A DNA stretch of 64,000 nt. Origin: Thiosulfativibrio zosterae. GTDB taxonomy: Bacteria > Pseudomonadota > Gammaproteobacteria > Thiomicrospirales > Thiomicrospiraceae. Of the stretch, positions 1 to 34,888 are shown piece after piece. The notes under the pieces are model-generated. The model ran no database searches. It was not told the DNA's origin and saw nothing but the letters and a program-made list of their open reading frames with translations. The DNA lies in contig NZ_AP021888.1 in assembly GCF_011398155.1 (NCBI RefSeq), forward strand, positions 789,501 to 853,500, in the 5' to 3' direction. The stretch's first letter is position 1. Each line of letters starts with the position of its first letter. The position numbers and the translations under genes were made by a program.

Positions 1-287
1 CAGATGCGGTGGTTTTAACCGATGATAATCCGCGTTGCGAAGCCTCTTATGATATTTTGAGCGATATTTTGCAAGGCTTTAATCCGACAAAACATCCGCA
101 ACCGCTGATGATTCCTGATCGCCAAACTGCCATAGAAACCGCATTGTCGCAAGCCAATCCGCAAGATATTATTCTCATCGCGGGTAAAGGGCATGAAACC
201 TATCAAGCCTTTTGCCAAGAACAAACCTATTTTAGTGATCAAGCTACTGTGCTGGCGTGGAAGAAAAAAGATGACATGGACTCTTAA
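1..287 (+). CDS. murE: UDP-MurNAc-tripeptide synthetase MurE, C-terminal fragment
   Basis: Cytoplasmic ligase that adds the third residue, meso-diaminopimelate, to UDP-MurNAc-L-Ala-D-Glu in peptidoglycan synthesis. Only about the last 95 residues are in the window; the reading frame is open to base 1. The fragment carries the DNPR motif (TDDNPRCE), which in Gram-negative MurE selects diaminopimelate over lysine, and the family's late GKGHE segment (AGKGHETYQ). The 3' end overlaps the start of murF by 17 bases, so the two are translationally coupled within the division/cell-wall cluster. The identification rests on these motifs plus position immediately before murF. The N-terminal and central domains lie outside the window. 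Confidence 0.93.
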   Translation, partial: DAVVLTDDNPRCEASYDILSDILQGFNPTKHPQPLMIPDRQTAIETALSQANPQDIILIAGKGHETYQAFCQEQTYFSDQATVLAWKKKDDMDS

Positions 288-1674
288 ACAACTTAGTGAT
301 GCAGTAAAAGGGCAGGTAATTAGTGCAAGCGCTGATGCTGAATCAATTACATTTGAACGCATGATAACCGATAGTCGTCAGATACAAGACGGGGACTGCT
401 ATGTTGCCCTGCAAGGTCAGAAATTTGATGGCCATGATTTTATTCCTCAAGCCATCAAGCATGGGGTTGCTGTTATCTTGGCGTCTAATCCAGAAGTGGC
501 CCAACATTTGGATATTCCAGTGGTGCTGGTGTCAGATACACGCATCGCCCTAGGGCAGTTTGCGGCATGGCATCGTTTGCAATGCCCATTGAAAACTTTG
601 TTTGCCATTACGGGTAGCAATGGCAAGACCACTTGTAAAACCATGTTGCACAGTGTGTTAGCCCATTTAGGTCATACTTTAGCAACCGAAGGGAATTTAA
701 ATAATGATTATGGCGTTCCCAGAACGCTCTTAAATATTCAACCCTCACATGATTACGCGGTGATTGAAATGGGTGCCAACCATGGTGGGGAAATACAGTA
801 TTTAACCCATTTAGCTCAGCCCAATGTGGCGATGATTACGCAAGCTTCAAAAGCGCATTTGGAAGGCTTCGGGTCTTTGCAAGGCGTGATTAATACCAAG
901 GGTGAAATTTTTGAAGGGTTATTGCCCGGTGGCAAAGCCATTATCAATTTAGATTCTCCGGGGAGCGAGCAATGGCTGGCATCTTGTCAAGCCCTCGATC
1001 GCCAAGTGCTTAGCTTTGGTCGTTCAGAACAAGCAGATGTTCGAGTGCTGAAAGTGACACAAAATGACATAGGTATTCAAGTCGATCTCAAATTACCGGA
1101 TCAATCTCAAGTGCAAGTGCAGTTGTCCGTATTGGGCCCGCATAACGCCATGAATGTGGCGGGCGTGATTGCTTGTGGTTGGGCGGCAGGCTTAAATTGG
1201 GCGCAAATTCAACCAGGCCTGGTCAATTTTAGAGCCGTTTCGGGGCGTTTAATGACTTATCCGTTAAAGCAAGGTGTTCTGATTGACGACAGTTACAATG
1301 CCAATCCAACCTCGGTTAAAGCCGGTATTGATACATTGATGGGCTTGAATGGACAGCATTTAGTCTGCTTGGGGTCTATGGCAGAATTGGGCGAACAAAG
1401 TTTAGCGGCGCACCAGTCGGTGATTGATTATGCAATGAATGCGGGTGTTGAGTCTATTTTTGTGATGGGTGCAGGTTATGCAGAGTGTCAGTCGAATGAT
1501 GCAAAAGTTCAGTGGTTTGCCAGCCATGATGCCATGATTGAAGCGGCGCAAAACACGATTCAACAAAATGTAGAAATCAAGATGAATATTCTGGTGAAAG
1601 GCTCGCGTTCTGCAGGCATGGAAGTGGTCAGCCAGACCTTGATTTCTAATAACAAACAAACACACAACGGCTAG
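271..1674 (+). CDS. murF: UDP-MurNAc-tripeptide:D-Ala-D-Ala ligase MurF
   Basis: ATP-dependent ligase adding D-Ala-D-Ala to UDP-MurNAc-tripeptide, the last cytoplasmic step of precursor synthesis. The 467-residue product has the Mur-ligase layout: N-terminal substrate domain, central ATPase with P-loop GSNGKTT at about residues 115-121, and C-terminal domain with the SYNANP segment. The ATG at 271 gives the usual MurF N-terminus (MTWTLKQL) and a 17-base overlap with murE; the frame stays open to 193 but those residues are not MurF-like. mraY follows after 11 bases. A copy of the ACCAGGCCTGGT palindrome lies inside the gene at 1212-1223 and encodes Pro-Gly-Leu-Val. Confidence 0.96.
1212..1223. 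repeat. Palindromic repeat ACCAGGCCTGGT, copy 1 (in murF)
   Basis: Perfect 12-bp palindrome followed by CAATTTT. In murF it is read CCA-GGC-CTG-GTC, giving Pro-Gly-Leu-Val followed by Asn-Phe. One of nine copies in the window. Confidence 0.85.
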
Positions 1675-1685
1675 GAGCAACCTGT

Positions 1686-2771
1686 ATGTTGATTTATTTA
1701 ACGGAATATCTCACCCAATATGTCTCCGGCTTTGCGGTATTTAACTACATCACCATGCGAGCCATCATGGCGATTCTGACCGCCTTATTGATTTCATTTT
1801 TTATTGGTCCAGCCGTTATTCGCTGGTTGATACAACTTAAGGTGGGTCAAGCGGTGCGCTTAGATGGGCCGCAAACCCATTTGGTGAAGCACGGCACACC
1901 GACCATGGGCGGAGTAATGATTTTGTTTTCTGTGGCGATGGCCATTTTACTCTGGGGTAATTTAACCAACCATTATTTGCTGATTGTTACCTTGAGCATG
2001 ATGGGGTTTGGGGTGATTGGCTTTGTAGATGATTACAAAAAGGTGGTTTATAAAGACCCGAATGGCATGCGTTCTCGTACCAAATATTTTTGGCAGTCGC
2101 TCGTAGGGTTGGTCACAGCCTATAGTTTATTTGCGTTTGCCAGTTTGCCAGCAGAAACTCAGTTGTTAATTCCCTACATGAAAGACACCTTTATCACGCT
2201 GGGGGCTTGGTCGATTGTATTGAGTTATTTTGTCATAGTAGGAACCTCTAACGCCGTTAACCTGACCGATGGATTAGACGGCTTAGCCATTATGCCAACG
2301 GTGATGATTTCAGGGGCGTTAGGTGTGTTTGCCTATTTGTCAGGGCATGTGTATTTTGCCAGTTATTTGAATATTCCTTATTTGCCAGGCGTGGGTGAAT
2401 TGACGATTTTTTGTGCCGCTCTAGCCGGTGCAGGTTTAGGGTTTTTGTGGTTTAACGCGCATCCTGCTCAGGTGTTTATGGGCGATGTTGGGTCTTTAGC
2501 GATTGGTGCTGCTTTGGGTACGGTGGCGGTGGCGGTTAAGCAAGAGCTGGTGTTTTTTATTATGGGCGGCGTTTTTGTCGCTGAAACCTTATCGGTTATT
2601 TTACAGGTGGGCTCTTTTAAATTACGCAAAGGTAAGCGCATCTTTTTAATGGCACCTTTACATCATCATTTTGAGCAAAAAGGCTGGCATGAATCACAAG
2701 TCATTGTGCGTTTTTGGGTCGTCACCATTATTTTAGTGTTGATTGGCTTGGCCAGTTTAAAACTTCGTTAA
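1686..2771 (+). CDS. mraY: Phospho-MurNAc-pentapeptide transferase MraY
   Basis: Integral membrane enzyme that transfers phospho-MurNAc-pentapeptide from UDP to undecaprenyl phosphate, making lipid I. The 361-residue length equals the family norm. Visible signatures are the Asp-Asp pair in FVDDYKK, the [10 protein letters not shown] segment, the FMGDVGS loop and the triple histidine PLHHHFE near the C-terminus; about ten hydrophobic segments are apparent. It lies 11 bases after murF and 14 before murD, in the standard order. Nothing unusual is seen. Confidence 0.97.
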
Positions 2772-2785
2772 GAAAGGAAATATCT

Positions 2786-4120
2786 ATGCATCTGGTGGCA
2801 GGCTTAGGGCTGACAGGGTTGTCAGTATTGCGCTATTTTGACCGTTTGGGCGAGGCCTGCTTTGGGTTCGATACCCGAGCAGACTTTGATTTGTCTGGCA
2901 TACAGGCAGAGTTTCCTGATGGACAGTTTGCCGTTGGCAGCTTACCGCCAACTTGGGTTAAAAAGATAGATGCCATTGTATTAAGTCCTGGCATTGCCAA
3001 ATCTGAACCTTGGGTGTTGGAATTGATTCAGCAAGGTATTGAGGTGATTGGTGACATTGAATTGTTTGCCAGAACCGTTGGGCAACCGATTATTGGGATT
3101 ACCGGTTCTAATGGCAAAAGCACGGTGACAACGCTGGTCACTGAAGTACTCACCCAAGCAGGTTATCAAGTGGGTATGGGGGGGAACATCGGTACGCCAG
3201 CCTTAGATTTATTGGCCAGTGATCAGCCTGAATATCAAGTGTTTGTGTTGGAGTTATCCAGTTTTCAACTGGAAACGACCTATTCTATGCATACCATCGC
3301 TTCAACCATCTTAAATTTGTCCGAAGATCATATGGATCGTTATGCGGGTTTAGAGGACTATTTGCAAGCCAAGATGAATATTTTTAATCACACAGAATTG
3401 GCTGTTTTACCCAGTAACTTCCCCAGTCATGTTTTTGTGCAAGCGCCTAAGCTTGTGCGCTTTGGTGACGGGAGTCCAAATGGGGTCATGCATTTGGACG
3501 GCGAAGATTGGTTGGTATTTGAGCAACAAAAAATAATCAAAGTTTCCGACATGGCTTTGCAAGCGGAGCATCATTATATGAACGCCCTAGCCACCATCGC
3601 TTTGTGTAGTGTGTTTGGCATTGAAACATCAGTTTATCAAACGGTGTTTAGCTGTTTTAAAGGATTACCACATCGCACCCAACTGGTTGCACAGCAGGAT
3701 GGCGTGAGTTGGATTAATGATTCTAAAGGGACGAATGTGGGGGCGACGGTGACTGCCATTCAGTCGATGGGTAAGTCAGCTAACGGAAAAGTGATTTTAT
3801 TAGCCGGTGGCGTTGGCAAGGATGCCGACTTTAGCGATTTAGCGCCAGTGATGCAAACCTATGGTCGCCACAGTATCCTCTTTGGGCGAGATCAAAATTT
3901 AATCGCTCAGGCATTAAGTTCAACGCCTTACACTTGTGTCGAAGACTTGTCGCAAGCCTTAAAACTGGCAAAATCCTTAGCTTTGCCAGGTGATGTGGTG
4001 TTGTTTTCGCCCGCATGTGCCAGTTTTGATCAATTTAAAAATTATGCGCACCGTGGTCAAGTGTTTGAAGCCAGTGTGATTGAGCTGTTGCAAAATTGCC
4101 ATCTGCAGGTCAGCGCATGA
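2786..4120 (+). CDS. murD: UDP-MurNAc-L-alanine:D-glutamate ligase MurD
   Basis: Cytoplasmic Mur ligase adding D-glutamate to UDP-MurNAc-L-Ala. The 444-residue product has an N-terminal Rossmann-like domain (GLGLTGLS), the ATP-binding P-loop GSNGKST, and the conserved LSEDHMDRY and NDSKGTN segments. The ATG at 2786 is chosen because it follows an AAGAAAGGAA ribosome-binding stretch and gives the normal MurD N-terminus; the open frame extends further upstream inside mraY but adds non-conserved residues. The stop overlaps the ftsW start as ATGA. Confidence 0.96.
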   Translation: MHLVAGLGLTGLSVLRYFDRLGEACFGFDTRADFDLSGIQAEFPDGQFAVGSLPPTWVKKIDAIVLSPGIAKSEPWVLELIQQGIEVIGDIELFARTVGQPIIGITGSNGKSTVTTLVTEVLTQAGYQVGMGGNIGTPALDLLASDQPEYQVFVLELSSFQLETTYSMHTIASTILNLSEDHMDRYAGLEDYLQAKMNIFNHTELAVLPSNFPSHVFVQAPKLVRFGDGSPNGVMHLDGEDWLVFEQQKIIKVSDMALQAEHHYMNALATIALCSVFGIETSVYQTVFSCFKGLPHRTQLVAQQDGVSWINDSKGTNVGATVTAIQSMGKSANGKVILLAGGVGKDADFSDLAPVMQTYGRHSILFGRDQNLIAQALSSTPYTCVEDLSQALKLAKSLALPGDVVLFSPACASFDQFKNYAHRGQVFEASVIELLQNCHLQVSA

Positions 4121-5265
4121 GTCCATTGCGTCACTGGCAACATCAAAGTCGACAATGGCCGATTGACTATTGGTTGATTGGGCTGGTGTCGGTATTGATG
4201 GTGATAGGGTTGATGATGGTCATGTCCAGCTCCATCGCCATCAGTGAAAAACGCTTTGATCATTCATTTCACTATTTCAGCCGCCAGGCGTTTTCAATGA
4301 CCTTGGGTATTTTGGTGGGATGGATGATTTTTAAAATCCCTTTGTCCTTTTGGGAAAAGCATCGCGGTAAATTGTTTTTAATTGGCATAGTGCTGCTCAT
4401 TTTGGTATTGCTGATTGGACGCGACATCAATGGGAGTAAGCGTTGGCTGCCATTGGTGGTTATGAACTTCCAGGTTTCAGAGTTTATGAAAATGGTGGTG
4501 GTCATCTTTATGGCAGGCTATTTAGAGCGCCATGCCTCTGCGGTGAGAGAGAATATTTTTGCGGTGATTCGACTGGCATTACCCTTTGGTTTAATGGCGG
4601 TGTTGTTATTGCTAGAGCCAGACTTTGGCAGTACTTTTGTGATTGCCGTTATTATTACCGGTATGTTGTTAATCGCCGGCGCACCTTGGTTGTATTTTGT
4701 GATTACCGTTTTCCCAATTGCTGTATTACTGATGGTGATGGTCATTGTTTCCCCTTATCGTATGGCGAGGGTAACCAACTTTTTAGACCCCTGGTCTGAC
4801 CCGTTTGGTAAAGGTTATCAGTTGACTCAAGCGCTCATTGCCTCTGGCAGTGGCGAATGGTGGGGGCAAGGCATAGGGGCGAGTGTTCAAAAGCTATTGT
4901 ATTTGCCAGATGCGCACACCGACTTTTTGGTGTCGATTTACGCAGAAGAGTTTGGCTTTATAGGCATTGCTGTATTGGTGATGTTGTATTTAATGATTTG
5001 CTATCGACTGTTTCGGATTGGCCGCAAGGCGTTTGAAAAGTCCGCCTTTTTTGGCGGCTTAATTGCCTATGGCGTGGGCATTTGGATTATGTTGCAAGCC
5101 TTAATCAATTTGGGTGTTAATTTTGGCTTGTTCCCAACCAAAGGATTAACCTTGCCGCTGATGAGTTATGGTGGCTCAAGTGTGTTAATGCTGTGTATTG
5201 CGCTGGCGGTGGTTTTACGCGTGGATTATGAAACTCGCAAACCCGAAATTCATCAAACTGACTGA
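4117..5265 (+). CDS. ftsW: Septal lipid II glycosyltransferase FtsW (SEDS family)
   Basis: Polytopic inner-membrane SEDS protein that polymerises peptidoglycan at the division septum together with FtsI. The 382-residue product has about ten hydrophobic helices, the large loop with PDAHTDF, and the C-terminal MSYGGSS motif. The start at 4117 overlaps the murD stop (ATGA), implying translational coupling. Position between murD and murG identifies it as FtsW rather than the paralogue RodA. An N-terminal cytoplasmic stretch of about 20 residues precedes the first helix. Confidence 0.95.
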   Translation: MSPLRHWQHQSRQWPIDYWLIGLVSVLMVIGLMMVMSSSIAISEKRFDHSFHYFSRQAFSMTLGILVGWMIFKIPLSFWEKHRGKLFLIGIVLLILVLLIGRDINGSKRWLPLVVMNFQVSEFMKMVVVIFMAGYLERHASAVRENIFAVIRLALPFGLMAVLLLLEPDFGSTFVIAVIITGMLLIAGAPWLYFVITVFPIAVLLMVMVIVSPYRMARVTNFLDPWSDPFGKGYQLTQALIASGSGEWWGQGIGASVQKLLYLPDAHTDFLVSIYAEEFGFIGIAVLVMLYLMICYRLFRIGRKAFEKSAFFGGLIAYGVGIWIMLQALINLGVNFGLFPTKGLTLPLMSYGGSSVLMLCIALAVVLRVDYETRKPEIHQTD

Positions 5266-5273
5266 CTTTGAAT

Positions 5274-6362
5274 ATGAAAAACGCAAGAAAAAAAATCATG
5301 ATTATGGCAGGTGGAACAGGAGGCCATGTGTTTCCTGGGATTGCGATTGGCCATGCTTTACAAGCTGAAGGGGTCGAGGTCATCTGGCTGGGCACTCAGG
5401 GCGGTTTAGAGCAGGGATGGGTGTCGCAAGCCAATATTCCACTGTTTAATATCGCCATTCGCGGCTTAAGGGGCAATGGGCTGTTAGGTTGGTTGGCAGC
5501 GCCCTTTAGAATTTTGCGGGCTTGGTGGCAGGCTCGTAAAATTATGCAACAACATCGGCCAGATTTGGTTTTGGGCATGGGCGGTTTTGTGTGTGGGCCA
5601 GGCGGTTTGGCGGCAAAGTCTTTAGGGGTTCCTCTAGTGATTCACGAGCAAAATGCCATTCCGGGCTTAACCAATAAACGCCTTGCGCCTTGGGCGGTTA
5701 ACATCATTACGGCTTTTGAACAAAAGGTTTGGACAGGCCAAAAGGTTTTGCTGTTAGGCAATCCCGTAAGAGCAGGGTTTGAGCAAATCCCTGTTCTACA
5801 TTCACAAAAACCGCTGCATATTTTAGTCGTTGGAGGCAGTCGAGGCGCTTTGGCGCTTAACGATACCGTGCCAAAGGCTTTGGCTTTATTACCAGCTGAA
5901 ATCCGCCCAACAGTTACCCATCAAACGGGCGCGGCTTTGCTGGCGCAAACTCAGCAGGCTTATGCCGATGCCAGTGTAGATGCTGAGGTGGTCACTTTTA
6001 TTGATGATATGGTGAGTGCTTATGAGGCCGCCGATTTAGTGGTGTGTCGTTCTGGCGCTTTAACGGTCAGCGAATTGATGGCCGCGGCACGACCTGCTTT
6101 AATGGTGCCTTATCCTCATGCGGTTGATGATCATCAAACGGCCAATGCACAAGCCTTAGTGGGGTTGAATGGGGGAGAGGTTATTTCGCAAGCGGTGATG
6201 ACCCCAGAATTATTGGCGGAAAAATTGATGCTTTGGTTAGATGTTGAAAAATTAAATGCAGCATCTAAAAGCATTAGGGAGCAAACCCCACAACAAGCGA
6301 CGCAAAAAATTACGCAACTTTTATTAAATCAACTCAGTGAAAATTCAGTTAAGCCTTGCTAA
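5274..6362 (+). CDS. murG: UDP-GlcNAc:undecaprenyl-PP-MurNAc-pentapeptide GlcNAc transferase MurG
   Basis: Peripheral membrane glycosyltransferase that converts lipid I to lipid II. The 362-residue product starts with the donor/acceptor glycine-rich loop GGTGGHVFPG and contains the later VGGSRGA loop and the nucleotide-sugar region RSGALTVSE, in the family's order. The start at 5274 (ATG) lies nine bases after the ftsW stop; a TTG two codons upstream is also in frame, and translational coupling with ftsW makes either possible. Here the division cluster stops: murC, ddl, ftsQ and ftsA appear 23 kb downstream. Its 3' end overlaps the convergent response-regulator gene by 14 bases. Confidence 0.96.
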   Translation: MKNARKKIMIMAGGTGGHVFPGIAIGHALQAEGVEVIWLGTQGGLEQGWVSQANIPLFNIAIRGLRGNGLLGWLAAPFRILRAWWQARKIMQQHRPDLVLGMGGFVCGPGGLAAKSLGVPLVIHEQNAIPGLTNKRLAPWAVNIITAFEQKVWTGQKVLLLGNPVRAGFEQIPVLHSQKPLHILVVGGSRGALALNDTVPKALALLPAEIRPTVTHQTGAALLAQTQQAYADASVDAEVVTFIDDMVSAYEAADLVVCRSGALTVSELMAAARPALMVPYPHAVDDHQTANAQALVGLNGGEVISQAVMTPELLAEKLMLWLDVEKLNAASKSIREQTPQQATQKITQLLLNQLSENSVKPC

Positions 6363-29382: not shown

Positions 29383-30789
29383 ATGAAAGATAAAGTAAAA
29401 CAAATTCATTTTGTAGGTATAGGTGGTGTCGGTATGGCTGGCATTGCAGAAGTTTGCCTTAGTTTAGGCTATTTGGTGAGTGGTTCGGATATTAATGAAA
29501 ATCCTACCGTCGAACGTCTCAAATCCTTGGGTGCAAAAATTCAAAATGGTCATGCTGCCGCCTTTGCAAAAAGTGCAGATGTGTTAGTGGTTTCAAGCGC
29601 CATTCCTAAAAATAACCCTGAAGTCGACTGGGCGAGAGAAGCCAGAATTCCAGTGATTCCAAGAGCGGCTATGCTGGCTGAACTGATGCGAATGCAGTAT
29701 GGTATCGCCATTGCAGGCACCCACGGAAAAACCACCACCACCAGTTTAACGGCTGCTGTTTTAACCCAAGGTGGCGTTGATCCAACTTATGTTATCGGTG
29801 GTAAATTGAATAAGGTGGGGTCTAATGCGCGGCTAGGTTCAAGCAAATATTTGGTTGCCGAAGCAGATGAATCCGATGCGTCTTTTTTACACCTCACTCC
29901 GATGGTTTCCGTCGTGACTAATATCGATGAAGATCACATGGAAACCTATCAGGGCGACTATCAACAGCTCGAAAACACGTTTGTTGAGTTCATTCATCGC
30001 TTACCTTTTTATGGGCTGGCCATTTTATGTATAGATGATGTCAATGTTCGCCAAATTTTGCCTAAGCTGAGTCGTAAATTAATCACCTATGGACTCAGTG
30101 AAGATGCTGACGTGCAAGGGTTTGCACTAGAGCCTTTAGGGTTAAAAACCCGCTTTAAAGTGCGTAGTACATTTCAGCCAGACTTTGAGGTGTTATTGAA
30201 CACGCCTGGAGAGCACAATGTCCGAAATGCATTAGCCGCAATTTCCATTGGCTTAGAGTTGGGCATTGCCATAGAAGATATTCAAGTTGCGTTATTAGAG
30301 TTCTCGGGCGTGGGGCGACGCTTTGAAGTGTATCCCAACCGTCTGATTGGGCAGTCGAATGTCACTATGGTTGATGATTATGGTCATCATCCAACTGAGC
30401 TTTTAGCCACTTTACAGACGGCTCGGGTTGCCTTTCCTGATAAACGCTTAGTATTGGTTTTTCAACCGCATCGCTTTTCGCGGACCCGAGATTTGTTTGA
30501 TGAATTTGTTCAAGCGTTTGTTCAAGCCGATTTATTAATTTTGTTAGATGTATATGCGGCAGGCGAAGCACATTTGCCAGCATTCGATTCAAAAGCCTTG
30601 TTGCAAGCCTTGAGATTGAGGGGCTACAAAAATAGTGTACATGTTGAGAGCGAAACGCAGTTAAATGAAGTGGCAAAAGACATTCTAGTAGATGGTGATT
30701 TGGTGTTGGTGATGGGCGCCGGAGATGTGGGGCAAATCGCTAAGCATTGGAAGGAACAAGCATTTACCCTTTTGGAGCAAGCACAATGA
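29383..30789 (+). CDS. murC: UDP-N-acetylmuramate:L-alanine ligase MurC
   Basis: First Mur ligase, adding L-alanine to UDP-MurNAc. The 468-residue product has the N-terminal UDP-binding loop GIGGVGMAGIAE, ATP P-loop AGTHGKTTTT, the EADESDASF catalytic segment, NIDEDHM, and the DDYGHHPTE segment. It opens the second block of the division cluster, 23 kb from murG. Its stop overlaps ddl as ATGA. Confidence 0.97.
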   Translation: MKDKVKQIHFVGIGGVGMAGIAEVCLSLGYLVSGSDINENPTVERLKSLGAKIQNGHAAAFAKSADVLVVSSAIPKNNPEVDWAREARIPVIPRAAMLAELMRMQYGIAIAGTHGKTTTTSLTAAVLTQGGVDPTYVIGGKLNKVGSNARLGSSKYLVAEADESDASFLHLTPMVSVVTNIDEDHMETYQGDYQQLENTFVEFIHRLPFYGLAILCIDDVNVRQILPKLSRKLITYGLSEDADVQGFALEPLGLKTRFKVRSTFQPDFEVLLNTPGEHNVRNALAAISIGLELGIAIEDIQVALLEFSGVGRRFEVYPNRLIGQSNVTMVDDYGHHPTELLATLQTARVAFPDKRLVLVFQPHRFSRTRDLFDEFVQAFVQADLLILLDVYAAGEAHLPAFDSKALLQALRLRGYKNSVHVESETQLNEVAKDILVDGDLVLVMGAGDVGQIAKHWKEQAFTLLEQAQ

Positions 30790-31766
30790 GTCAGGCTTTG
30801 AATGATATGATAGAAACATCCATTGACCTCAAGCAGTCCTTAGGAAAAGTGGCAGTTTTAATGGGCGGTTGGGCGGCAGAAAGACCCATTTCGTTAAAAA
30901 GTGGCCAAGCAGTTACCCTGGCTTTAAAAGCTCAGGGCATTGATGCCACCGCTTGTGATGTTCAGTGCCTTGAAGATGTCATTAAGGTCACTGAAACCTT
31001 TGATAGAGCCTTCATTACCTTACATGGTCGTTGGGGTGAAGATGGCACTGTGCAAGCCTTACTGGACTCGTTAAAGTTTCCTTACACGGGCAGTGGCATG
31101 GCGGCATCAGCCATCGCTATGGATAAGTTACGCACCAAATGGATGTGGCGAGGTGCGGGTTTGCCAACGCCTAATTTTGTCTTAGTTTCACCCACGCAAC
31201 CGCTCAACCTAACGCACTTTGAATTAGAGTTTCCAGTCATTGTTAAGCCCATTCATGAAGGCTCTAGTATTGGTATGCGCAAGGTCAATGGACTTGAAGC
31301 CTTGGCGGAAGCTGTAAGTTATGCGCAGCAGTTTGACAGTGAAATCTTAATTGAGCAGTGGGTCACTGGCCGAGAGTTTACCGGCGCTGTTTTGTTAGGG
31401 CAGGCTTTGCCTTTGATTGAACTTAAAACCACGCATGATTTTTATGATTACGAGGCAAAATATTTTGCCAACGATACGCAATATTTATGTCCAGCCAGTT
31501 TGCCAGACGAGTTGGTTAAAACGCTCCCCGACATGATTATTAAAGCCTTTGAGGTGGTCGGTGCCAAAGATTGGGGGCGAGTGGATTTTATGTTGGATCA
31601 AAACATGAACCCTTGGTTAATTGAAATCAATACCGTGCCGGGCATGACGGACCATAGCTTAGTGCCAATGGCGGCAAAAGCGGCGAATATTTCGTTTGAG
31701 GCGTTGGTTTTAAAATTGATTTCCGCCACTTTGCTGCCCGCCACTACTACATCAGCGAAAGTGTAA
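30786..31766 (+). CDS. ddl: D-alanine:D-alanine ligase Ddl
   Basis: ATP-grasp ligase forming D-Ala-D-Ala for murein precursors. The 326-residue product has the substrate segment GGWAAERPISL with the key Glu, HGRWGEDG, the ATP loop EGSSIGM, and the metal-binding EINTVPGMT near the C-terminus. The ATG at 30786 overlaps the murC stop; an upstream extension in murC is not conserved. ftsQ begins in the stop (TAATG). The first motif differs slightly from the usual GGxSAERE. Confidence 0.95.
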   Translation: MSQALNDMIETSIDLKQSLGKVAVLMGGWAAERPISLKSGQAVTLALKAQGIDATACDVQCLEDVIKVTETFDRAFITLHGRWGEDGTVQALLDSLKFPYTGSGMAASAIAMDKLRTKWMWRGAGLPTPNFVLVSPTQPLNLTHFELEFPVIVKPIHEGSSIGMRKVNGLEALAEAVSYAQQFDSEILIEQWVTGREFTGAVLLGQALPLIELKTTHDFYDYEAKYFANDTQYLCPASLPDELVKTLPDMIIKAFEVVGAKDWGRVDFMLDQNMNPWLIEINTVPGMTDHSLVPMAAKAANISFEALVLKLISATLLPATTTSAKV

Positions 31767-32524
31767 TGGTTGCTTGGAAACCTTCAAAAAAATGGCTTTT
31801 GGCAGCGCTGCTGTTGCTCAGTCTAGGCATTTTTGGAGTGTTGGTCATTTTGCCAGCTGATTTCAGTCAATCGATTAAGTCTGAAGCTGAGGTGTCATCC
31901 GAGTTTTATCCCATCAAGCAGTTTAAAGTTGTTTCTACCATTAAAGAGTTGAATCAGGCAGATATAGATCAAGTCATCCAACCCTATATCGGCCAATCTT
32001 TTTGGCGAATCCCTTTGCAGCAAGTTCAAGCTGAATTGACTCGATTGGATTGGGTTTTTAGAGCAGAGGTTCGTCGAGTTTGGCCGGATACGCTTTTGGT
32101 TAGGATTCAAGAACAAGAGCCCGTGGTGCGTTGGAAAGAGTTTGGTCTGCTGAATAATCAGGGCGAATTGTTTTATCCCAAATCGATAGACCCTTTTGAG
32201 CGGTTGGTGGTTCTCAGTGGCGATGAATTACGCTCGCGAGACTTGTTAAAGGTATTGGCGCAGCTTCAACAGGCTTTAGATGATGGGGGATGGATTATTC
32301 GCCGCCTCAGCGAGCAAGCCGATGGCGTATGGCGCTTGGAGCTAACCCAAGGCTTGGTTTTGTGGCTTGACCCGGAGAATTGGCAACACAAAATTAAGCG
32401 TTGGTTGATTGCTTATCAGCAAGTTTCTAAGGAAACTAGAAAAGTCGCAGAGGAAATTGATTTGCGCTATAGTAATGGGTTTGTTATAAAGCAACATTCA
32501 GAGCAACAATTGACCTCATCATAG
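31766..32524 (+). CDS. ftsQ: Cell division protein FtsQ
   Basis: Bitopic divisome protein linking early and late division proteins. The 252 residues comprise a short cytoplasmic tail, one membrane helix (about 9-29), a POTRA domain (IKELNQADIDQVIQPYIGQSFWRI) and the beta domain with WPDTLLVRIQEQEPVVRW. It overlaps ddl by one base (TAATG). Order ddl-ftsQ-ftsA is standard. Confidence 0.94.
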   Translation: MVAWKPSKKWLLAALLLLSLGIFGVLVILPADFSQSIKSEAEVSSEFYPIKQFKVVSTIKELNQADIDQVIQPYIGQSFWRIPLQQVQAELTRLDWVFRAEVRRVWPDTLLVRIQEQEPVVRWKEFGLLNNQGELFYPKSIDPFERLVVLSGDELRSRDLLKVLAQLQQALDDGGWIIRRLSEQADGVWRLELTQGLVLWLDPENWQHKIKRWLIAYQQVSKETRKVAEEIDLRYSNGFVIKQHSEQQLTSS

Positions 32525-32578
32525 CTGACTATTTTGTAGTAAAACGATATTAGAATTAAAAACAGGGTGATTTTACAC

Positions 32579-33832
32579 ATGGCTCGTAAACAAGCGACAA
32601 CCGAAAATATTATTATTGGATTGGATATCGGTACATCCAAAATTGCGGCGATTATTGGTAAGGTCAAGTCGGATGGTGGAATTGAAGTTGTCGGTATGGG
32701 GCGCTATCCATCTAAAGGTCTTAAAAAAGGCGTGGTAGTTAATATTGATGCTACGGTAGAGTCTATTCAACGCGCCATCGACGAAGCTGAAAGAATGTCT
32801 GGTGTGACAGCGCATTCTGTTTATGTGGGCATTGCTGGTAGTCATATTTCAAGTTTCAACTCTAATGGTATGGTGGCAATCAGTCATAAAGAGGTGGGTG
32901 AAGAAGATATTGCCCGCGTGATAGATGCTGCCAAGACGATTGCGATTCCCAGTGATCAAGAAGTGTTACATATTTTGCCTCAAGAATTTATGATTGACAG
33001 CCAAGGTGGTATTCGTGAACCCATAGGTATGTCTGGTGTGCGTTTAGAAGCAAAAGTACACATGGTGACGGGTTCTGTGAGTGCCGCGCAAAATATCACT
33101 AAATGTGTTGAGCGCTGTGGGCTGGTTGTTGCTGATTTGGTTTTAGAACAGTTAGCGTCCAGTGAAGCGGTGTTATCTGAAGATGAAAAAGAATTGGGTG
33201 TTTGTCTGGTTGATATTGGGGGCGGCACAACCGATATAGCGGTTTTTCAACAAGGCGCTATTCGTCACACGGCAGTCATACCCATTGCCGGAGACCAAGC
33301 GACCAATGACATTGCCCATGCTTTCCGTACGCCAACCAGCGCCGCTGAAGATATTAAAAAACGCTATGCTTGTGCAATTAGCCAGCTGATTGCCAACGAT
33401 GAAGAAATTGAAGTGCCGAGTGTGGGGGATAGACCCGCACGCTGTTTGTCGCGCCGTTCATTGGTTGATGTGATTGAGCCGCGCTATGAGGAGCTTTTTC
33501 AGCTAATTCAAGCAGAGCTACGCCGTGCAGGATTTGAGAATAAGTTGGCCGCTGGCGTGGTCTTAACTGGCGGCAGTTCTTTAGTTGAGGGGGCTGTTGA
33601 GTTGGCAGAAGAGGTGTTTCATATGCCAGTGCGCTTAGGCCTGCCTCATGGTGTAACGGGGCTGAAGGAGGAGGTAAATAGTCCTTCTTATGCAACAACC
33701 GTGGGATTGTTAATGTTTGCACAGCGCCATTTATCTGCCGCTAAGCCTGAAGAAAATCGTCCTAACAAAAAAACGCAAGATGTTCAGTCTGTTTTTGACA
33801 GCATGAAAAATTGGTTCAAGAAAAGTTTTTAA
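32579..33832 (+). CDS. ftsA: Cell division protein FtsA
   Basis: Actin-like ATPase that anchors FtsZ to the membrane. The 417-residue protein has the nucleotide-binding phosphate loop LDIGTSKI, the VDIGGGTTD segment, and the TGGSSLVEG adenosine loop. A C-terminal amphipathic tip (NWFKKSF) matches the membrane-targeting sequence. The ATG at 32579 follows a GGGTG ribosome-binding site; a GTG four codons upstream is less likely. ftsZ should follow but does not; a terminator and then lpxC come next. Confidence 0.96.
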   Translation: MARKQATTENIIIGLDIGTSKIAAIIGKVKSDGGIEVVGMGRYPSKGLKKGVVVNIDATVESIQRAIDEAERMSGVTAHSVYVGIAGSHISSFNSNGMVAISHKEVGEEDIARVIDAAKTIAIPSDQEVLHILPQEFMIDSQGGIREPIGMSGVRLEAKVHMVTGSVSAAQNITKCVERCGLVVADLVLEQLASSEAVLSEDEKELGVCLVDIGGGTTDIAVFQQGAIRHTAVIPIAGDQATNDIAHAFRTPTSAAEDIKKRYACAISQLIANDEEIEVPSVGDRPARCLSRRSLVDVIEPRYEELFQLIQAELRRAGFENKLAAGVVLTGGSSLVEGAVELAEEVFHMPVRLGLPHGVTGLKEEVNSPSYATTVGLLMFAQRHLSAAKPEENRPNKKTQDVQSVFDSMKNWFKKSF

Positions 33833-33859
33833 GCTGAGCTGGCCTAGTTTTATAAAATC

Positions 33860-33884
33860 AACGCCCACTTAGGGCGTTTTTTTT
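33860..33884 (+). terminator. Rho-independent terminator after ftsA
   Basis: AACGCCC / GGGCGTT stem, loop ACTTA, then eight T. It closes the murC-ddl-ftsQ-ftsA unit. Confidence 0.9.
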
Positions 33885-33964
33885 GGTGTGCAAGATTTGA
33901 TTTGGACGGTCGTATTATTAAATTTATGTTAATATTTGCAGTTTAGAAGACAGAGAAAAGAATC

Positions 33965-34888
33965 GTGAATCAAAGAACACTGGCAAACACCATTAAGGCG
34001 AAAGGCGTCGGTTTACATACTGGGCATGAAGCCGTAATGACCCTTCGTCCAGCACCGGTAGATACAGGCGTTATATTTCGTCGAACAGATTTGTCGCCAG
34101 TGGTTGAGTTTAAAGTGGCACCTGATTTGGTTGGCGAAACCATGTTGTGTACCACCATTTTGAAAGATGATGGGTGTGGTGGCCTTGCCAAAATTGCCAC
34201 GATTGAGCATTTAATGTCTGCGCTAGCGGGTGTCGGTGTTGATAATTTATATATTGATTTAACGGCCGATGAAGTCCCGATTATGGACGGAAGCTCCTCA
34301 CACTTCATATTTTTACTGCAGTCTGCCGGAATTCAAATTCAAGATTCACCGAAAAAATTTATTAGAGTTTTAAAGTCGGTGACGGTTGAAAACAATAAAG
34401 GCGGTATCGCCAATTTTAAACCTTACGAAGGCTATCGTTTAAATTTTTCGATAGATTTCGATCACCCCGCTTTTGATAAAACCGCTGAAAAAATGACCTT
34501 AGAGTTTTCATCCACGGCTTATTTTAAAGAAGTCAGCAGAGCTCGCACCTTTGGTTTTATGAAAGACATGGAAATGTTGCGTTCCAAAAATCTAGGTTTG
34601 GGTGCCGGTTTACATAATGCGATTGGTCTAGATGAAAAAGGCGTTATGAACGAAGAAGGGCTGCGAGATAAGGACGAGTTTGTGCGTCATAAAATTTTAG
34701 ATGCCGTTGGCGATTTATTTATGGCAGGTTATGCGTTGGTGGGTGAGTTTACCGCTCATAAATCAGGCCATGCTCTGAATAATGAATTGATTCGTGCCTT
34801 GATGGCCGATTCCGATGCTTATGAAATCGTAACCTATGATTCAGGCGAACCGCCAATTCATTATGGCAGTAGCAAAATACTGCTGTAA
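33965..34888 (+). CDS. lpxC: UDP-3-O-acyl-N-acetylglucosamine deacetylase LpxC
   Basis: Zinc deacetylase that commits UDP-GlcNAc derivatives to lipid A synthesis. Recognisable segments are KGVGLHTG, the zinc-binding IEHLMSAL, PIMDGSSSHF, RTFGFM and the second zinc motif HKILDAVGDL followed by GHALNN. The 307-residue length is normal. It starts at GTG with GAGAAAAGA upstream. It lies in the usual place before dciA and secA, but ftsZ is missing before it. Confidence 0.96.
   Translation: MNQRTLANTIKAKGVGLHTGHEAVMTLRPAPVDTGVIFRRTDLSPVVEFKVAPDLVGETMLCTTILKDDGCGGLAKIATIEHLMSALAGVGVDNLYIDLTADEVPIMDGSSSHFIFLLQSAGIQIQDSPKKFIRVLKSVTVENNKGGIANFKPYEGYRLNFSIDFDHPAFDKTAEKMTLEFSSTAYFKEVSRARTFGFMKDMEMLRSKNLGLGAGLHNAIGLDEKGVMNEEGLRDKDEFVRHKILDAVGDLFMAGYALVGEFTAHKSGHALNNELIRALMADSDAYEIVTYDSGEPPIHYGSSKILL

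Follow-up and report, generated by a model that had tools for sequence, protein, structure and literature searches.

In the canonical dcw cluster of the Gammaproteobacteria ftsZ stands last, and in E. coli it is driven mainly from promoters inside ftsQ-ftsA. The dcw cluster of Thiosulfativibrio zosterae shares with the canonical cluster the genes and their order from mraZ to murG and from murC to lpxC, an mraZ promoter with MraZ-box-like repeats, and an intact ftsA. It differs in that ftsZ is third and ftsA adjoins lpxC; in addition, the canonical cluster is unsplit, whereas that of T. zosterae is also split between murG and murC.

For Burkholderia cenocepacia, one report (PMC7761207) places four operator repeats immediately behind the −10 box of the dcw operon and describes control by MraZ of a transcript that includes ftsZ. 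For E. coli it gives mraZ to murC as the region repressed by MraZ. The operator layout, as described there, is the same as that upstream of mraZ in the Thiomicrospirales, but ftsZ is the last of 15 genes in B. cenocepacia, behind ftsA, and third here. In Mycoplasma genitalium, according to a second report (PMC8475190), MraZ represses ftsZ in the mini-dcw cluster mraZ-mraW-MG_223-ftsZ. There ftsZ is close behind mraZ and rsmH (= mraW), as in T. zosterae, but the intervening wall genes have been deleted and one unknown gene lies between, whereas here the full wall cluster follows ftsZ. The likeness to the Mollicute mini-dcw is convergent and does not reflect relationship.

The T. zosterae genome is a single contig (C1) of 2,645,427 bases. 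The window, i.e. the whole 64-kb stretch that was analysed, covers C1:789501–853500. A sequence-only reading of the window had stated that ftsA and lpxC are separated by only 132 bases with a terminator, that FtsZ is not encoded in the window, and that FtsA keeps its C-terminal membrane tip. The features concerned are collected in Table 1.

Table 1. Features of the T. zosterae dcw locus and of the FtsZ-like open reading frame of genome G104. Plain numbers are window positions.
Feature	Position	Strand	Basis or remark
ftsZ	C1:784806–785978 (L002 14806–15978)		3.5–4.7 kb before window base 1
murF, mraY, murD, ftsW, murG (head half of dcw cluster)	193–6362	+	
23-kb stretch foreign to dcw, between murG and murC	6363–29382	both	absent in compact clusters L192–L194
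murC and murB (tail half of split dcw cluster begins)	29383–31766	+	open reading frames; neighbours of ftsQ-ftsA conserved in relatives
ftsQ	31766–32524	+	NF008043, E 3e-17, below curated cut-off; position
ftsA	32579–33832	+	TIGR01174, 499.8 bits; Pfam FtsA and SHS2_FTSA
ftsA-lpxC gap (former ftsZ site)	33833–33964	+	132 bp, no ftsZ remnant
Terminator-like hairpin and T-run behind ftsA	33860–33886	+	
lpxC	33965–34888	+	open reading frame; as query matches lpxC at its usual place in 73/85 outgroup loci
G104 FtsZ-like open reading frame, 477 aa	L210:1454–2887 (= L217:1454–2887, G104:C16)	+	behind rsmH, before ftsI-murE-murF-mraY

The description of the gap is borne out. The TAA stop codon of ftsA ends at 33832 and lpxC starts with a GTG at 33965. 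Between them is a stem, AACGCCC-ACTTA-GGGCGTT (33860–33878), with a T-run behind it. Terminator-like sites around the gap are no more numerous than in shuffled sequences, and the hairpin call therefore rests on its own quality and position. FtsA is intact, as had been read; its C-terminus, SVFDSMKNWFKKSF, has an amphipathic look, judged by eye only. The start codon is ATG at 32579, with an in-frame GTG at 32567 as a possible alternative. The name lpxC is based on the earlier reading of the sequence together with matches to annotated lpxC genes; murC and murB are presumed names, based on sequence and gene order. Downstream of lpxC come first a minus-strand DciA-like gene and then secA. An Rfam search of the window gave 0 matches, and a search of plasmid records yielded 18 records with partial matches only. 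As a separate observation, murB directly abuts ftsQ at 31766, with no ddl gene between them; in E. coli, ddlB lies between murB and ftsQ.

No ftsZ is present in the window. TIGR00065 matches the genome at a single place (C1:784830–785792, 394.2 bits against a cut-off of 295.2), which is located before the window start, in the adjoining stretch L002 (C1:770001–789500). The gene order in L002 is rplM, rpsI, mraZ, rsmH, ftsZ, ftsL, ftsI, then murE. The gene thus belongs to the head half of the split cluster, and 37,279 bp (model coordinates) separate it from ftsA downstream. The earlier suggestion that ftsZ had moved elsewhere is thus correct as to the move, but the new place is not an unrelated one: ftsZ is at position 3 of the same dcw cluster, between rsmH and ftsL. 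It has left ftsA and sits near the head of the cluster.

The T. zosterae FtsZ gives Pfam Tubulin and FtsZ_C matches above cut-off. The GGGTGTG signature, the T7 loop and the C-terminal peptide that binds FtsA and ZipA are characteristic motifs of FtsZ; GGGTGTG, NVDFED and LDIPAFLRRQAD were found in the T. zosterae protein by reading, and its tail is NYLDIPAFLRRQAD. From its sequence the protein looks intact, with GTPase motifs and FtsA-binding tail kept. A second ftsZ copy was considered and rejected, there being one match genome-wide and no tblastn match to ftsZ or a remnant of it (E 1e-3) in 61 family ftsA loci, that of T. zosterae included. Taken with the results given below, it is likely that a single-copy ftsZ moved within the dcw cluster and is now the third gene of the mraZ operon.

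The family sample comprised 62 genomes, obtained by GTDB family search, and this is also the entire sample of the order. An FtsZ match was found in 60 of them, the exceptions being G020, where the contig stops directly behind rsmH, and G042. In all 60 genomes with a match rsmH is directly upstream of ftsZ (the ftsZ of G038 is divided between two contigs). The gene downstream is ftsL in 56 genomes (G038 being counted by its second contig) and ftsI in two, where ftsL was undetected at the threshold used; in two others the contig ends. Loci titled Hydrogenovibrio, Thiomicrorhabdus, Thiomicrospira and Sulfurivirga have the rsmH-ftsZ order as well (L029 contains a cut ftsZ only). The ftsA loci could be read in 61 of the 62 genomes. 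The next gene is lpxC in 59 and a contig end follows in the other two; ftsZ was found near ftsA in none of the 61. In the family the canonical contiguity ftsA-ftsZ-lpxC is replaced by ftsA-lpxC (59 of 61 loci) and rsmH-ftsZ (60 of 60).

These counts bear on the concern that assembly dropped an ftsZ truly located between ftsA and lpxC. Beyond the caution voiced in the sequence-only reading nothing favors such a gap. The T. zosterae genome is one contig with its single ftsZ found elsewhere, and among 61 relatives, assembled independently and in several cases into one contig, ftsA adjoins lpxC in 59, the remaining two loci being cut off by a contig end. An assembly gap is therefore rejected as hardly conceivable.

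For comparison, 114 genomes of the class were searched. FtsZ matches were found in 106, two of which belong to the home family; of the remaining 104 outgroup ftsZ loci, 85 were read and 19 left out. In 81 of the 85, ftsA is directly upstream of ftsZ, in agreement with the expectation for gammaproteobacteria from which the earlier reading started. The adjacency of ftsA and lpxC is therefore not due to chance. Four loci are exceptions. In L153 the sequence upstream of ftsZ is N-masked, and in L161 (G128) ftsZ is isolated, the tested dcw neighbours being absent within 3 kb on either side. In L141 (G096) and L145 (G090), ftsZ is likewise off ftsA and among the head genes of the dcw cluster, but the insertion points differ (behind ftsI and before rsmH, respectively), and these are gammaproteobacterial genomes of ~1 Mb on long branches. 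The two displacements probably represent independent events.

Eight genomes of the class sample have no FtsZ match. Four of these (G065, G082, G097 and G171) also lack RsmH and an FtsA above cut-off, and missing contigs are the likely explanation. Two others, G077 and G110, have RsmH and no FtsA above cut-off. FtsA is retained only in G104, which is treated below, and in G153. The latter, a gammaproteobacterium, has ftsA and lpxC 5 bp apart (L199:1480–3614, G153:C1). Three models detected no FtsZ in this one-contig, 1.4-Mb genome, which is rated 100% complete; we presume that it may be of the mussel-symbiont type known to lack ftsZ.

The move of ftsZ is old and fixed in the Thiomicrospirales, an order of sulfur oxidizers. 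The comparison of relatives dates it to the ancestor of the whole order or before, and T. zosterae is no oddity in this respect. The arrangement is a new order of a known gene cluster, ancient at the level of the order. A search of open-licence papers found no report of an ftsZ relocation behind rsmH in the Thiomicrospirales.

The descent of ftsZ was analyzed with a quick tree of 72 of the 137 available FtsZ sequences. The family sequences form one group (SH-aLRT only 81) inside a beta/gammaproteobacterial clade (100). The deepest branch within the family is the four-genome code g2 (three rows used), followed by Sulfurivirga. A tree of FtsA and LpxC displays the same branching order, g2 first and then Sulfurivirga. 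A history of vertical descent fits these trees. The mean identity of family FtsZ to outgroup FtsZ is 55.8%, compared with 63.9% among outgroups, while FtsA hardly differs (60.5% and 62.2%, respectively). This inequality could be taken to mean that a foreign ftsZ was gained horizontally at rsmH-ftsZ-ftsL and that the native copy beside ftsA was lost. However, the family nests as one beta/gammaproteobacterial group with its own branching order, and an FtsZ-FtsA difference as large as that of the family is found in 6 of 61 outgroups. The lower FtsZ identity is therefore read as a mild acceleration and not as a sign of foreign origin, and horizontal gain appears improbable. The shared branching order of the two trees does not support it.

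In T. zosterae the genes murF to murG follow mraZ-rsmH-ftsZ-ftsL-ftsI-murE. The stretch that then separates murG from murC contains a chemotaxis-receptor-like gene, lgt, thyA, folA, a sensor kinase gene, znuABC-like genes and suf genes. The run mraZ-rsmH-...-ftsL-ftsI-murE-murF-mraY-murD-ftsW-murG-murC is split in this way, between murG and murC, in T. zosterae and in genus code g7, which we take to be Thiomicrospira proper. In L192, L193 and L194, by comparison, the whole dcw cluster is compact and ftsZ alone is displaced, and in the basal genomes G002 and G017 ftsZ and ftsA are within one compact co-directional cluster.

The spacing between ftsZ and ftsA was determined in the 39 genomes that have both genes on one contig. 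It is 13.5–14.0 kb in three genomes of g2 and g5 (Sulfurivirga) and 28–59 kb in 30 genomes of g1 (the genus of T. zosterae), g3 (Hydrogenovibrio) and g6 (Thiomicrorhabdus). In three of the six g7 genomes ftsA is 40–139 kb upstream; in the other three it is on the opposite strand and more than a megabase away in linear coordinates. An interruption similar in size to that of T. zosterae is seen in Hydrogenovibrio and Thiomicrorhabdus, where the spacing is 28–40 kb in nearly all genomes.

Because the deep branches keep one compact cluster, the move of ftsZ preceded the split that separates it from ftsA. Most simply, the displacement of ftsZ came first and the breakage of the cluster followed; physical separation of the two genes is a second, later step, since G002 and G017 are compact and co-directional. 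The sequence-only reading had concluded that co-regulation of ftsZ with ftsA is lost. The support for this is only indirect. In T. zosterae, 23 kb with several opposite-strand genes divide murG from murC, which makes joint transcription of ftsZ and ftsA implausible.

The new position places ftsZ behind the mraZ promoter. Upstream of mraZ there is a sequence TTGACA-N17-TATAGT, followed by GTG repeats at an exact 10 bp period. The promoter is present in 26/26 family loci examined, with four GTG repeats in 24 and three in two. Shuffles of the same stretch match the array in 0/200 cases for the 24 loci and in 1/200 for the two. The window itself has no four-GTGG array. MraZ matches TIGR00242 with 151 bits, above cut-off. 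As judged from these motifs, the promoter upstream of ftsZ is conserved and is accompanied by a site of four repeats that resembles an MraZ operator. Direct control of ftsZ by MraZ is likely, and we infer that ftsZ is within direct reach of MraZ across the order.

A relocation neutral for regulation, in which ftsZ has its own promoter in the rsmH-ftsZ gap and the place behind mraZ is meaningless for its control, is the less likely reading, though it carries some weight. A gap of 32–167 bp precedes ftsZ in the family loci, and the tail half of the cluster drifts freely, so that gene order itself is only loosely kept. In many relatives the sequence behind ftsZ forms RNA structure (13 of 44 have z below −3), but the same is seen in outgroups (11 of 84). 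On the other hand, rsmH-ftsZ is retained in every genome with an FtsZ match even where the remaining cluster is scattered, and three of the four g2 genomes leave just 32 bp between the two genes. The 85-bp gap of T. zosterae could hold a separate ftsZ promoter; a promoter scan for one gave nothing above chance there, and promoter-like sites nearby are also at chance level. A regulatory consequence of the relocation is plausible, and the place behind mraZ probably alters division control.

A family-specific hairpin between ftsZ and ftsL, acting as an expression valve, was also considered. The mean z behind ftsZ is −1.96 in the family (44 distinct sequences), compared with −0.56 behind rsmH (46). 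Outgroups, however, have a mean of −1.34 (84) behind ftsZ and the T. zosterae value is only −1.03, and the proposal was dropped.

G104, a genome of the class sample (2.0 Mb, ~50 contigs, rated 100% complete, alone in its order here), provides a related case. Its ftsA adjoins lpxC, and TIGR00065, PF00091 and PF12327 detect no FtsZ. Its FtsA and LpxC group with the Thiomicrospirales (96/97) in a joint tree of 39 hand-picked rows, and in quick single-gene trees with 100 and 98; G104 sits on a long branch, which the FtsA tree places within the family. A 477-aa open reading frame follows rsmH. It scores 23.6 bits on an FtsZ profile, compared with at most 3.7 for 200 shuffles. A phmmer search against 1,233 open reading frames (a dcw-rich set) gave FtsZ for all of the best 15 matches, each of them weak (best E 0.005), and hhalign gave a probability of 61% (P 8e-5). 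When 369 genomes of the class were searched, five further matches were obtained, all weak (E 0.0008–0.004), and four of them were in true ftsZ genes. Judged by these comparisons the open reading frame is a remote FtsZ. When aligned, it shows neither a recognisable GGGTGTG nor a recognisable T7 loop, but it retains a tail, AFLERQ, that is similar to AFLRRQ. Searching PDB sequences with the protein yielded no match, and no Pfam or NCBIfam match was above cut-off. The assembly being in ~50 contigs, a second ftsZ may have escaped detection.

A tentative and rather doubtful extension is that ftsZ moved in a common ancestor of the Thiomicrospirales and the G104 lineage, which would have brought it under direct MraZ control and freed FtsZ from FtsA. 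The G104 FtsZ would then have lost its GTPase motifs and kept an FtsA-binding-like tail, and the cells would either rely for division on a non-canonical FtsZ that is probably GTPase-dead or have no working FtsZ.

For the Thiomicrospirales themselves the following history is proposed. In the ancestor of the order at the latest, a single-copy gammaproteobacterial ftsZ would have left its place between ftsA and lpxC for one nearer the head of the dcw cluster, between rsmH and ftsL; every genome read has kept it there. No trace of the mechanism (transposition, or duplication and loss) was found. At its new place ftsZ would be third in the transcript of the mraZ operon, which would bring it under direct MraZ autorepression; ftsA remained beside ftsQ and lpxC. 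The split of the cluster between murG and murC came later, with the tail moving far off in g7, and from then on the amounts of FtsZ and FtsA would have to be matched from separate promoters.

The adjacency of ftsA and ftsZ is commonly explained by a need for matched expression or by co-translational assembly (“genomic channeling”, a term used in PMC8475190). The Thiomicrospirales are an order with cultured, free-living members in which ftsA and ftsZ have been apart since the ancestor and both are retained. They thus offer a natural test of whether the adjacency matters and of whether MraZ directly sets the level of FtsZ. Decay of FtsZ in a genome rated complete would be rare, and the relocated, motif-less FtsZ relative of G104 would be an instance of it.
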